The notes under the pieces: generated by a model
Database searches by the model: none
What the model was told of the DNA's origin: nothing
What the model saw: only the letters and a program-made list of their open reading frames with translations
Shown: positions 1-16,043 of the stretch, one piece after another
Layout: every line of letters begins with the position of its first letter
Position numbering within the stretch: position 1 is the first letter of the stretch
Translations under genes and position numbers: made by a program
Assembly (NCBI GenBank): GCA_022822005.1
Contig: JAJECO010000062.1
Span: 1-64,000 of the forward strand
Reading direction: 5' to 3'
DNA from: Candidatus Poribacteria bacterium
GTDB lineage: Bacteria > Poribacteria > WGA-4E > PCPOR2b
Length of the DNA stretch: 64,000 nt

Positions 1-140
1 CCCGTTTTGTTTGAAAAGTCGGAGTCGGGAAGTCGCTCATAGAGCGACGTGTCGGGATTGGGAAATCCCTCCCCGATAAATCCCCGATGAATCGGGACAG
101 GCGGGATGCAGGCACCTACAGAAAAACTAAATGACCCTAC
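1..140. repeat. Family E inverted-repeat element, copy E1 (cut by window edge)
   Basis: Bases 1-59 match 1195-1253 with a single mismatch, so the same unit lies on both sides of the J-domain gene. The right end (AACTAAATGACCCTAC, 125-140) matches the right ends of the copies at 1167-1317, 20635-20783 and 52554-52721. It contains the palindrome TCCCGATNNATCGGGA at about 83-97. There is no coding potential. It is probably a non-autonomous mobile element (inference). Confidence 0.6.
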
Positions 141-5468: not shown

Positions 5469-5641
5469 CGTAACACAAGTTGCCGGTTATAGTTCGTAGG
5501 GTAGTAGACACGCACTATCGCCCCCTCCTATGCACAAGGGTTACGGCATACGGAGTATGCCTACTACTATGTAGCTACTAGCATCTACGGTTTATGTCGC
5601 ACGATCTCTTCATATGAACCAATACAACGAGGATGTTAATC

Positions 5642-6439
5642 ATGTCAAATTACTTAGAACCAGCACATCATAAAGACTGGCAAAATAACAACTATCTGAA
5701 GATTTCCGGCTTCTTCTCAGACGAAGAAATAACGGCATTGCAAGAGTGGGTCAAAGACATTGAGGGACGGGAACCGACCCATGACAAGTGGCTGCACCAT
5801 TTTGAAGCTACTCCAAAGGGGACGCGGCTTTCCCGCTCAGAAAATTTCGTGCCGTACCACGCAGGTTTGGAAGAGTTGTTGACGGGCGGAAAGGTGTTGA
5901 AGGTTGTCTCGGAATTGATGGACGAGCCGGCTGTCCTGTATAAAGAGAAAATCAATTACAAGTATCCCGGCGGGGGAGGTTACGCCCCACATCAGGACGC
6001 GCCTGCTTACGAATTTGTTTCCTTTCATATCACCTGTTTAATTTCAGTCGATCCAGCGACACCGGAGAGCGGCTGCCTCTCTTTTTCACCGGGGCAATAC
6101 GAGAAAGGTTTTATCGCGCTCGACGAGAAGGGGTGTATTGCGGAGGAGGTTGCTTCGGAGATGGAATGGGTCGAGGTGCCGACAGAGCCAGGGGACATCC
6201 TGTTGTTCGGATCTTATATCCCGCATAAGAGCGGCACAAACCGCTCTAATCAGCCGCGACGCATCATTTATGTGACTTACAATGCCCTCTCCGAAGGAGA
6301 TTGGCGTGAGCAGTACTATGAGGATAAACGACAGACCTTTTTGGACTACCAAAAAGATAGTTCAACACAAGCAAGCCAGATCAGTAAAATTGGACATTTT
6401 CGAGGAAGGACGGTGCTGAACCATGAACAGTCGGATTGA
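5642..6439 (+). CDS. phnY: PhnY-like 2-oxoglutarate/Fe(II) dioxygenase (PhyH fold)
   Basis: About 265 residues of the phytanoyl-CoA dioxygenase fold with the iron facial triad: H-x-D in PHQDAP near residue 119 and the distal His in IPHKSG near residue 195, followed by an arginine region for 2-oxoglutarate. The gene directly downstream, overlapping by 17 bp, is a PhnZ-type HD-domain oxygenase. In known PhnY/PhnZ pathways PhnY hydroxylates 2-aminoethylphosphonate at C1 and PhnZ then cleaves the C-P bond. That role is inferred here from the pairing. The start at 5642 is preferred over 5633 because CGAGG (5628-5632) lies 9 bp upstream. Confidence 0.7.
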   Translation: MSNYLEPAHHKDWQNNNYLKISGFFSDEEITALQEWVKDIEGREPTHDKWLHHFEATPKGTRLSRSENFVPYHAGLEELLTGGKVLKVVSELMDEPAVLYKEKINYKYPGGGGYAPHQDAPAYEFVSFHITCLISVDPATPESGCLSFSPGQYEKGFIALDEKGCIAEEVASEMEWVEVPTEPGDILLFGSYIPHKSGTNRSNQPRRIIYVTYNALSEGDWREQYYEDKRQTFLDYQKDSSTQASQISKIGHFRGRTVLNHEQSD

Positions 6440-11413: not shown

Positions 11414-13108
11414 ATGACTAAGGAAAAAGTCAAGTTTGTTCTGAACCAAATAGTCCCCTTGGAGGAGAGTCTTCGCTGTGAATTCAAATCTGTCAGAGTT
11501 AATCCAGTTCCGGTAATCCGAGAGCAGGTCGGTCGGTATGTGGTTGCCTATCTCAACGGAGGCATAGAGGGCAGCATATATTGGGGAATCACAGATGACA
11601 GGCAAGCAATTGGAGTTTCTTTGGATTCGAGAGAGCGCGATGATTTTCGCAAAGATATTGTTGCGGAACTCAGGTCGGTTACCCCGGCGATTATCCCAAC
11701 GTCATACGATATTATATTCCATCCCCTTTTTGCTGGAAACAAGGCTGAAATACCAATGCCTGATCAGTGTATCATTGAAGTCAAGGTGGAACGCGTATCC
11801 CCACGGCAGGTGCACTTTATACCGGGAACAAAGGGGGAACAAGCCTTTATTAAGACTAATTCTGGAATAGAGGAGGCGAAGGGAAAACGCTTGGTTGAAT
11901 TGCAGAAAAGCACACAAGTTGAACAGGGAAATGAAAAAGAACAGGAAGGCACTTCTCCTGCCTCAGAAACACCGCCGGTCAAAAAGTCCAAGGCACCGGC
12001 GACTCCGATACCTTTGGATAATCCGTACAATCCCGCGGTGATAGCAACAGAGAATATGTTCAAAGGACGTGAAGATGATTTGAAAGGAATTATTGAGACG
12101 TTGCAGAGACGGATCGGCAGGCACCGTGACTATCTATCTGAAAATGAGACGCGCACTCGGCAAATGCTGATTGATCCATTATTATATGCGTTGGGATGGG
12201 ACGTATTGGATCCAGATACAGTTCAACTTGAGTATAAAGTGAAACAGAAACGGGCAGATTATGTACTGATGTGGAATGGTAAGCCTGTTGCTGTGATTGA
12301 AGCGAAACGACTAGGAAGTAGTCTAGAAGATAATGAGACGACTCAAGTTCATATCTATGCTAATCAGAATGGCATTCCCTACATGATTGTCACTGACGGG
12401 GATAAGTGGGAAATGTATGAAGTCTTCAAGCCGGTCCCGTTGGAAGAGCGTCGGTTAATGAAGTTTGAGTTGTCTCAACAACTGACTCATGAGAGTATGT
12501 TGCGAATATGGAAGCCAAACCTTGCTACTGGTAACCCATCCGAAGCAATGGAACCAGTTGTTGTGCTATCACAACCAGGACCTGATTTAACTAGTAGTTC
12601 GCCCAATGAATCACAGCCATCGTCCAACGATCCACCAAAAAATAGTACTCTGACCCTCACACAACGGTTGTATTTAGACTATTGGACAGCATTCGGAGAA
12701 TACCTAGAACAACGCAACGGTGTGATGAAGCCTAGAGCACCTCAACCTGACCAATGGATAGGTGCTTTTACATTTAAAAAAACAGGAGGTTGTACACTTT
12801 ATCTCACGATTAACAAAACAGATAGCTGGATACGCGTTGCTGTCTATACGCCGGGCAAAAGAGGGGAGGCTTATTTTCACCTTTTAGCACAGGACAAGAC
12901 AAAGATTGAAGCAGAAGTCGGGAACAAATTGAAGTGGGAGAATAAGGAAGAAAATACAACGGACCGTTTCATATCACTTTATCTGTATGGTGTTGATCTC
13001 GAAAACCGCCAAGACTGGGACCGACAACACAAGTGGATCTGTAAACAACTTGAAACCTTTCACAGGGTCTTCTCGCCACGGTTTCAAGTCTTCAATGCCA
13101 GCGATTAG
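11414..13108 (+). CDS. Schlafen AlbA_2 / HsdR-N-like nuclease / DUF4268 fusion protein
   Basis: 564 residues in three parts. Residues about 12-165 are a Schlafen-type AlbA_2 domain (CEFKS, YLNGGIEGSIYWGITDD). Residues about 215-370 resemble the N-terminal nuclease domain of type I restriction HsdR: RADYVLMWNGKPVAVIEAKR near 280-300 supplies the D and E-x-K of a PD-(D/E)XK site. Residues about 415-564 match DUF4268, a domain often attached to such nucleases. A charged, proline-rich linker separates the first two. There is no helicase or methylase. The composition suggests nucleic-acid sensing plus cleavage, possibly defence (inference). The neighbours are GIY-YIG, TPR and XRE genes. Confidence 0.7.
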   Translation: MTKEKVKFVLNQIVPLEESLRCEFKSVRVNPVPVIREQVGRYVVAYLNGGIEGSIYWGITDDRQAIGVSLDSRERDDFRKDIVAELRSVTPAIIPTSYDIIFHPLFAGNKAEIPMPDQCIIEVKVERVSPRQVHFIPGTKGEQAFIKTNSGIEEAKGKRLVELQKSTQVEQGNEKEQEGTSPASETPPVKKSKAPATPIPLDNPYNPAVIATENMFKGREDDLKGIIETLQRRIGRHRDYLSENETRTRQMLIDPLLYALGWDVLDPDTVQLEYKVKQKRADYVLMWNGKPVAVIEAKRLGSSLEDNETTQVHIYANQNGIPYMIVTDGDKWEMYEVFKPVPLEERRLMKFELSQQLTHESMLRIWKPNLATGNPSEAMEPVVVLSQPGPDLTSSSPNESQPSSNDPPKNSTLTLTQRLYLDYWTAFGEYLEQRNGVMKPRAPQPDQWIGAFTFKKTGGCTLYLTINKTDSWIRVAVYTPGKRGEAYFHLLAQDKTKIEAEVGNKLKWENKEENTTDRFISLYLYGVDLENRQDWDRQHKWICKQLETFHRVFSPRFQVFNASD

Positions 13109-13756: not shown

Positions 13757-14590
13757 ATGAATGACAAAGGATACACGAATCCACAACTGCTGATTTCCGC
13801 CGCAGAGTTGATGGGCAGACTCGACGACGGTTCGATCTGCCTTGTGGATGTCCGACCGACACATGAATATGTCAAGGGACATATTCCCGGTGCGATCCAT
13901 CTCGATCTATTTGCAATCAGTCTCAGTGACACGAGCGAACAGGTGTTCGACGCGTTTATGTGGACGATTGCGTACCTCTTTAAGGACCGTGGGATCGACC
14001 CGACCAAGACAATCGTGTGGTATGAAAACGAATCTGGCGTTAAGGCGGCACGCGGATTCTGGTTCTGTGAGTATCTGGGCCATGAGGATGTCCGGGTGTT
14101 GGACGGCGGACTGAGTGCTTGGTCTGCTGCGGGTGGGGAGGTGAGCACTGAAGCGGTAGTGCCAGAGGAGGTGCCACAATTCTCGACCGACTCAAAATCA
14201 GATGCCCACATGGATGCGGAGACTATACAAGGATTACTCGATGCTGGTGATTTTGCTGTCCTCGATACGCGCGCCGCTGCCGAACATTACGGAGATGTCG
14301 CACGTTCTGCGCGGGGTGGCGCTATCCCCGGATCGGTTCATATCGAATGGATGAACAATCTGGACGAGAGCGGTATGTTCAGACCTGCTGCAGAACTTCG
14401 TGAGTTGTATGAATCCGCAGGGATTACGCCGGAGAAGCGCGTCATGTCCTACTGACAGGGCGGATACCGCTCTTCCCATAGCTATTTGGCGTTGCGGCTT
14501 TTGGGCTATCAGAAAGTCAGCAACTACATCGGTTCGTGGAAAGAGTGGGGAGATCGGCTGGATCTGCCGATCGAAATACCGGAAGCGTAA
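13757..14590 (+). CDS. Two-domain rhodanese (thiosulfate/3-mercaptopyruvate sulfurtransferase) with UGA at the catalytic position
   Basis: Read through one in-frame TGA (14453-14455, codon 233), the frame gives 277 residues, the usual length for this family. The N-terminal rhodanese domain (about 1-130) lacks the active Cys, as is normal. The C-terminal domain (about 150-277) has the substrate-binding fold. The UGA falls exactly where the active-site loop should read Y-C-Q-G-G-Y-R-S: the codons are [23 protein letters not shown], followed by [15 protein letters not shown]. This fits selenocysteine replacing the sulfur-accepting cysteine. A nonsense mutation is the alternative. A possible SECIS hairpin follows the UGA. 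If UGA is a stop, the product (13757-14455) would lack its active site. Confidence 0.7.
14456..14497 (+). promoter_or_regulatory. Possible bacterial SECIS-like hairpin after the rhodanese UGA
   Basis: The bases after the UGA can fold with an outer stem CCGC (14467-14470) / GCGG (14494-14497), an internal loop, an inner stem CCA/TGG and an apical loop of 8 bases starting 23 bases after the UGA. That distance is within the range of bacterial SECIS elements. The pairing is short and the loop lacks an obvious leading G, so support is modest. Confidence 0.35.
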
Positions 14591-14831: not shown

Positions 14832-16016
14832 CTACGCTAATGCCTGATCAAGGTCCGCGATGATATCTTCCACTTCCTCTAAACCGACAGAAATCCTCAC
14901 CAACCCATCGGTGATTCCAGCGCGATGGCGCGCTTCCGGCGAAACATGCAGATGCGTCGTCGAAGCGGGGTGGCAGATTAGCGTCCGTACATCACCCAAG
15001 CTGACCGCGAGTGCACAGAGTTCGACCCGATTCACCAACTTCTCTCCTGCTTCTACTCCACCTTTGAGTTCAAAAGCGATCATCCCACCGAAATAATTCA
15101 TCTGTTGTTTGGCAAGCGCGTGTTGTGGGTGGCTCCGCAGACCGGGGTAGTGTACCCTCTCGATCGCCGAATGATTTTCCAGAAATTCTGCGAGCGCGCC
15201 GGCATTGGCACAGTGGCGCTCAAAGCGCAGCGGCAGTGTGGCGACCCCGTGCAGCGTCAACCAAGCGTTGAACGGACTGATGACGCCCCCGAAGTTCCGT
15301 AGTGCCCCGTTCTTTGCGGAATCAATAAACTCCTTTGATCCAACAATCACGCCAGCGACCACCGTGCTATTTCCACTGAGATACTTGGTCATACTGTGGA
15401 CGACGATATCGAAGCCGAAGGTGATTGGCTGCTGTCCACACGGTGTGGCAAAGGTATTGTCGATGATGGAAGTAGTTCCGTGTGTGCTTGCAATTTTTGC
15501 ACAGGCAGCAAGGTCCACCAGCTTTAGCGTTGGATTGGCAGGACTTTCGAGGTAGATGGCTTTTGTGTTCGATTGAATCGCCCGCTCAACTGCACTGGAA
15601 TCGGTAGCATCTACAAATGTGGTCTCGACCCCCATGCGGCGGAGATCATCATTCAGGATATTGTATGAGCCGGAATAGAGAGAATCCATCGCCACGACAT
15701 GGTCTCCGTGAGCGAGCAGCGTCAACAACGCTGTGCTCACGGCTGCCATACCCGACGCTGTTGCGAGCGCTGCTTCACCGCCTTCCAAGGCGGCAATTTT
15801 GTTTTCGAGCACTGATTGTGTCGGATTTCCCCACCGCGTATAGACATAACCTGAATCTTCGTCCGTGAACGCAGCGACGCACTCCTCCGCTGTCTCAAAC
15901 TGGAAGGTGCTGTTCTGGTAGATGGGCGGGCTGAGGGGACCTGTCTTGGGGAGAGATTCTTCGCCGGCGTGGATGGCTTTGGTTGACCAGCCGGTGGATA
16001 TAGATTTCGTTGTCAT
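14832..16016 (-). CDS. Cys/Met-metabolism PLP enzyme (cystathionine gamma-synthase / methionine gamma-lyase family)
   Basis: About 394 residues of the fold-type I trans-sulfuration family. Visible marks are the cofactor-contact segment YTRWGNPTQ near residue 60, the ASGMAAVS phosphate-binding loop near 90, IIDNTFATP near 186 and the Schiff-base lysine in VVHSMTKYLSGNS near 210. The family makes or breaks C-S bonds in methionine, cysteine or homoserine derivatives; the sequence alone does not fix which reaction. The ATG at 16016 is preferred to the TTG at 16025. A family M repeat lies 28 bp upstream of the start. Confidence 0.88.
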   Translation of the reverse strand: MTTKSISTGWSTKAIHAGEESLPKTGPLSPPIYQNSTFQFETAEECVAAFTDEDSGYVYTRWGNPTQSVLENKIAALEGGEAALATASGMAAVSTALLTLLAHGDHVVAMDSLYSGSYNILNDDLRRMGVETTFVDATDSSAVERAIQSNTKAIYLESPANPTLKLVDLAACAKIASTHGTTSIIDNTFATPCGQQPITFGFDIVVHSMTKYLSGNSTVVAGVIVGSKEFIDSAKNGALRNFGGVISPFNAWLTLHGVATLPLRFERHCANAGALAEFLENHSAIERVHYPGLRSHPQHALAKQQMNYFGGMIAFELKGGVEAGEKLVNRVELCALAVSLGDVRTLICHPASTTHLHVSPEARHRAGITDGLVRISVGLEEVEDIIADLDQALA

Positions 16017-16043
16017 AATATTCAATCCGTTGGTTATTCTTAT

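Follow-up and report, generated by a model that had tools for sequence, protein, structure and literature searches.

Selenocysteine-containing rhodanese-related sulfurtransferases of the COG2897/cd01449 class were reported in 2008 from ocean metagenomes (Zhang & Gladyshev, PMC2398784), and a 2026 review includes 'rhodanese form 4, UxxG' among the selenoproteins (PMC13188914). Both were obtained by searching metagenomes for Cys/Sec homology (PMC2398784, PMC13188914). The bacterial SECIS element is described as lying immediately downstream of the UGA (PMC13188914). The published model comprises a loop of 3-9 nt, an upper stem of 4-16 bp, a minimum free energy (MFE) ≤ -7.5, a distance of 16-37 nt from UGA to apical loop and a G in the first two loop positions, the last rule being worded as G and then G or U (PMC13188914). 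Some bacterial elements do not fit this model, and the reason is not given (PMC13188914, PMC12013277).

In the open-access literature, neither a study of poribacterial selenoproteins nor a distal SECIS occurring naturally in bacteria was found, which is weak evidence with regard to the subscription literature. Su, Li and Gladyshev reportedly engineered a 3'-UTR SECIS in E. coli (NAR, 2005). The distant SECIS is said to have supported Sec insertion, with flanking complementarity bringing it near the UGA.

The gene analysed here encodes a two-domain rhodanese of Candidatus Poribacteria, a bacterium of the sponge type, and is located in a DNA stretch of 64,000 nucleotides, referred to as the window. 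The kind of protein is already known, namely the Sec-containing COG2897 rhodanese (GOS 2008). Both are two-domain rhodaneses of marine origin with Sec at the Cys site and the U-x-x-G motif (here UQGG); PF00581 and the UQGG motif are shared with form 4 (cited accession MCY3690685.1). What is new is the proposed recoding signal, which consists of a long-range helix and a distal hairpin. Compared with the bSECISearch consensus model, the spacing is 103 nt instead of 16-37 nt, and the gap would be bridged by a covarying helix. The geometry is the same as that reported for the engineered E. coli element. However, that element was artificial and placed in a 3'-UTR, whereas the one in the rhodanese is natural, lies within the coding region and is conserved across several lineages.

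Characterization of the rhodanese gene and its product

Translation of 13757-14590 on the forward strand gave 232 codons, the TGA at 14453-14455, 44 further codons and a TAA stop at 14588-14590, confirming the single in-frame TGA noticed in the initial annotation. With the UGA read as Sec, the protein has a length of 277 aa. The product matched Pfam Rhodanese (PF00581) in two stretches with 1.8e-38. The traits of the COG2897 class were present, i.e. two rhodanese domains, the catalytic residue in the second one and a CxxxxR loop. The coordinates of all features are collected in Table 1.

Table 1. Features of the Sec-rhodanese gene and of its putative recoding signal (offsets are counted from the UGA)
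Feature	Position	Strand	Evidence
Two-domain rhodanese, COG2897/SseA-like, PF00581 x2	13757..14590	+	Translation, Pfam, PDB, AlphaFold2
UGA, predicted Sec 233, opening the catalytic loop UQGGYR (six residues)	14453..14455	+	TGA shared by 81 distinct genes; Cys homologues with TGC/TGT; RhdA alignment
Long-range helix I, 5' strand CCGCUCUU, +14..21	14467..14474	+	647/648 cells paired, 81 genes
Inner helix within the looped-out arm, strand GUUGC (partner 14520-14524)	14491..14495	+	Covariation count
Inner helix, partner strand GCAAC	14520..14524	+	Part of MFE fold
Long-range helix I, 3' strand AAGAGUGG, +88..95	14541..14548	+	647/648 cells paired; covariation
Hairpin II, proposed SelB-binding SECIS core, +99..119	14552..14572	+	Conservation, covariation, fold

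In alignments, the UGA of MSY(U)QGGYRS fell on the Cys in the catalytic loop of both Azotobacter vinelandii RhdA ('THCQTHHRS', PDB 1e0c; E 7e-44, over 9-274) and the Thermus thermophilus rhodanese 1uar. The assignment of the TGA to the catalytic Cys, made earlier from the letters of the gene, holds far beyond chance. These two enzymes have the same fold (TM 0.84-0.87, ~32% identity), align over the full length and carry the catalytic loop in the second domain, with Cys in place of Sec. For an AlphaFold2 model in which Cys was put at the UGA site (mean pLDDT 94.4), the best-matching solved rhodaneses gave TM values of about 0.8-0.87. In this model the residues after the UGA form the loop, a helix and the last strand of the second domain. 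A product terminated at residue 232 would be without the active loop.

The UQGGYR loop has six residues, which we take to be the size typical of a sulfurtransferase. The position two residues before Sec was occupied by C, P or S, with Cys in 69/81 of the UGA genes and Ser in the present gene (SYU). No strictly conserved Cys is thus found next to Sec, which argues against a thioredoxin-like redox pair. Rhodanese homology and the frequent Cys at this position are shared with NCBIfam rhodanese_LYCAU (NF041203, CxU form); the score was 35.9 against a cut-off of 115, and the gene reads SYU, not CxU. The score for ExtH (NF040901) was 62.8 against a cut-off of 200. Two other cysteines were near-invariant in the Sec-type rhodaneses but not in the Cys-type ones: Cys28 (78/81 against 5/12) and Cys104 (80/81 against 3/12). 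This pattern leaves room for a resolving cysteine and suggests that Cys28 or Cys104 may be a co-evolved resolving or selenium-handling residue. The likeliest chemistry would be transfer of S or Se via a Sec-bound, persulfide-type intermediate.

Conservation of the UGA codon

A TGA at the same codon was found in 81 distinct homologous genes, most of them from Poribacteria, and the named relatives belong to Candidatus Poribacteria. When 85 genomes of the phylum were scanned with a cut-off of E ≤ 1e-40, a homologue was detected in 71. Exactly one stop, always TGA, was present in 67/71, and 4/71 were without a stop. In every UGA gene read in detail the TGA occupied the identical codon. Further genes with TGA at this codon came from records labelled Latescibacterota, Gemmatimonadota and Nitrospinota; no further members were found in the phylum of the Nitrospinota relative. 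The codon was TGC or TGT in three genomes of one family (f3) and in homologues from Acidobacteria- and Deltaproteobacteria-labelled records, so the expected Cys homologues do exist. The comparison set consisted of the 81 distinct UGA genes and 12 Cys homologues.

The codons after the TGA had been read initially as a conserved rhodanese C-terminus, and the homologues agree with this. None of the 81 UGA genes had another stop in the 41 codons after the UGA, and amino-acid identity among them was 91% after the UGA against 71% before it. These values point to strong purifying selection on the downstream part.

Selenocysteine machinery

The presence of selA, selB, selC and selD had been named in the initial annotation as the check on a selenocysteine reading. 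In the genome (6.0 Mb, 97.8% complete) all of them were found: tRNA-Sec (selC) with 76.2 bits, selA with 602 bits, selB with 369 bits and selD with 370 bits. The genes selC, selA and selB were grouped on one contig (C78). The selD gene contains an in-frame TGA and is itself a Sec gene. Its proximal hairpin, GUCAGUCC-AGUU-GGACUG, is of the ordinary type (L026 about 1527-1560, G000 contig C66), and 15/21 of the selD genes of the phylum fitted the normal proximal SECIS model. The distal hairpin II was not used by the selD genes. Poribacteria thus use ordinary SECIS elements too, which counts against a distal element in the rhodanese.

Outside the phylum, SelA was present in 10/10 of the Sec-type genomes tested. 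Since selA was also found in some Cys-type genomes, finding the machinery is not enough to tell Sec types from Cys types. Taken as a whole, the UGA at the catalytic Cys almost certainly specifies selenocysteine in the rhodanese of Candidatus Poribacteria, as far as this can be read from sequence. This reading is favoured because it fits the UGA, the Cys homologues and the Sec machinery together, and the earlier proposal of a selenoprotein is supported to that extent.

RNA structure downstream of the UGA

Covariation was scanned over 185 nt around the UGA, from -60 to +125. The four strongest covarying complementary pairs were, in order of rank, 101-117, 17-92, 20-89 and 102-116, all of them in helix I or hairpin II, and the next pair had about half the score of 102-116. 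In the 81 genes, 99.1% of the cells of both helices were paired, against at most 53% for sliding partners. Double changes were counted in 38 cells, compared with 6.6 ± 2.1 after shuffling, and shuffling synonymous codons among the sequences lowered the Watson-Crick cells of helix I from 562 to 524 ± 4; as the 81 genes are related, such cell counts overstate the independent evidence. On a tree built from the codons upstream of the UGA only, the pairs were preserved through some twelve or more double changes that arose independently. Joint changes on this tree numbered at least 5 for 17-92, 3 for 20-89, 3 for 101-117, and 2 or 3 for 102-116.

Helix I consists of 8 bp and begins 11 nt after the UGA, with double changes between CG and UA in either orientation (CG<->UA and UA<->CG) in the 81 genes. 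The inner helix of the looped-out arm was weaker, with 92.8% of cells paired and double changes at 2/5 pairs. In hairpin II, a 7-bp stem (14552-14558/14566-14572, GAUCGGC/GCCGAUC) encloses the loop UGGAUCU (14559-14565). The consensus of the 81 genes was GAYCGGC-UGGAUYU-GCCGRUC, in which 98.2% of the cells were paired, double changes occurred at 101-117 and 102-116 and the loop carried UGGA in 81/81. The fold of hairpin II was calculated at -12.5 kcal/mol, and RNAalifold placed the hairpin 3 nt after helix I. The sequence of the gene itself (14464-14575) folded into helix I, inner helix and hairpin II with -46.5 kcal/mol (z -4.35).

Loop, stem, G and MFE (≤ -7.5) of hairpin II agreed with the published SECIS values in 80/81 genes, and the U-G-G start of the loop fits the rule on G in the first two positions. 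The spacing did not agree, with the loop 103 nt from the UGA in 79/81 genes against 16-37 nt in the model. We take the loop to resemble that of E. coli fdhF.

Synonymous variation among the 81 UGA genes was lowered at codons -1, +1, +4 to +7, +12-13, +30 and +35 to +39. The constrained codons include those of the 5' strand of helix I, and the distant block at +30 to +39 forms hairpin II. Leu+36 was encoded by CTG in 81/81 of them and was variable in the Cys homologues.

Distribution of the element and its state in Cys homologues

In the Cys homologues only 63% of the cells of helix I and hairpin II were paired and hairpin II was disrupted; both helices are eroded. One Cys gene (L164, TGC, 5595-5717), which grouped with a Sec gene in the tree, kept helix I in 8/8 pairs and had a single mismatch in hairpin II. 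It is apparently a recent Sec-to-Cys replacement that retains a relic, decaying signal.

The hairpin II pattern gave 2 exact and 38 one-mismatch matches in the genome, against 31 for a reversed control. Of these, 30 loci were inspected, and an in-frame TGA ~100 nt before the hairpin, flanked by open frames, was seen in the rhodanese alone. When the complete element was searched for as a covariance model in the 85 genomes, strong matches were confined to these rhodaneses and the related Cys genes. Weaker matches corresponded to the opposite strand of the same gene or to other, unplaced sites.

Proposed mechanism

We infer a SECIS role for the conserved covarying structure. In the proposed mechanism, Sec would stand in place of the persulfide-carrying Cys of a two-domain rhodanese, and the UGA at 14453 would be decoded by SelB-Sec-tRNA(Sec). 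Hairpin II (+99 to +119) may be the element to which SelB binds. Helix I (+14..21/+88..95) would fold the intervening stretch into a long side arm and thereby act as a bridge, leaving hairpin II 3 nt from the base of the arm. The path from the UGA to hairpin II would then consist of ~11 nt, one base-pair step and 3 nt; with helix I formed, this effective path would be close to the normal bacterial range. The start of helix I, 11 nt after the UGA, presumably lies near the mRNA entry of the ribosome.

It is quite likely that the Sec-rhodanese gene contains a natural distal bacterial SECIS, with a bridging helix that carries it to the UGA. It is also fairly likely that it represents a previously undescribed SECIS class, in which a hairpin for SelB, encoded ~100 nt downstream, is displayed by a long-range helix beside the UGA, and which was kept across Poribacteria, Latescibacterota and allied lineages and lost upon replacement of Sec by Cys. 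Two points weigh against the distal reading. The spacing of 103 nt is outside the 16-37 nt of the model, and, with transcription-coupled translation, the distal element must be transcribed before the ribosome reaches the UGA.

Alternative explanations

An ordinary SECIS at 16-37 nt, with the helix and the distal hairpin only modulating translation or mRNA stability, would agree with the description of bacterial elements as immediately downstream of the UGA (PMC13188914). The earlier suggestion of a hairpin whose loop lies 23 bases downstream of the UGA belongs here: it can be drawn, but it is not conserved, and the SECIS placement proposed with it was wrong. Hairpins fitting the published model at 16-37 nt occurred in 18/81 genes, roughly as often as at arbitrarily chosen points upstream (70/405). 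The hairpin +4..10/+14..20 can form in the gene itself but was rejected, as it showed no double change, was broken at several pairs and has its loop too near the UGA. With fits at background rate and no strongly covarying pair supporting any proximal hairpin, a proximal SECIS was rejected as a candidate, and we regard it as unlikely. Slightly less likely still is a SECIS whose core is the long imperfect arm (+14..95, with the apical loop around +52) and in which hairpin II is only accessory. The arm has a stable fold, and both the helix at its base and the inner one are conserved. However, its apical region is the least conserved part: synonymous variation was near normal at codons +16 to +27, the third bases at +16 to +22 varied freely and the predicted apical loops differed among genes, whereas the loop of hairpin II is nearly invariant.

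The remaining explanations concern the UGA itself. Readthrough as other residues is known elsewhere, and the existence of Cys homologues would suit a UGA read as Trp, Cys or another residue without Sec, by a code change or a suppressor. We consider this very improbable, given only one in-frame TGA, placed precisely at the catalytic Cys, the presence of selA/B/C/D and an RNA constraint that tracks the UGA; moreover, no other TGA linking two homologous gene halves was found in the window. In one genome, a lone stop in an otherwise open frame looks like a nonsense mutation or a sequencing error in a pseudogene or a gene for a truncated protein, which was the competing explanation considered at the outset. 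Conservation of the same TGA across 81 distinct genes excludes it; the lack of other stops, the strong purifying selection indicated after the UGA and the Sec machinery also speak against it, and its probability is minimal.

Gene surroundings

A methionine-gamma-lyase / O-succinylhomoserine-sulfhydrylase-like PLP enzyme is encoded at 14832-16025 (-), convergent with the rhodanese. No recurrence of this neighbour beside the rhodanese was found in the named relatives, and no functional inference is therefore drawn from it; the gene context gives no help on the function of the rhodanese. Upstream, 11414-13108 (+) encodes one 564-aa protein matching the Schlafen AlbA_2, type I restriction HSDR_N and DUF4268 domains. 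Among the named relatives (L100-L157), 47 have an ORF of ~460 aa, membrane transporter-like (MATE-like by eye), ~1.4 kb before the rhodanese; it is absent from the window. Directly after the rhodanese, the segment 14640-14790 contains short inverted and near-repeats (e.g. 'accccctaaatcccccttatcaggggga') that look like interspersed repeats.

Implications

If the bridged distal SECIS is true, it would explain one class of the bacterial elements that fail the model. It would suggest that SelB recoding in nature needs proximity in space and not in sequence, and it would provide a rule for finding missed selenoproteins. With the rhodanese, sponge-associated bacteria gain a selenoenzyme that spans a phylum, and the natural Sec/Cys pairs make the gain of Sec over Cys in a sulfurtransferase testable.
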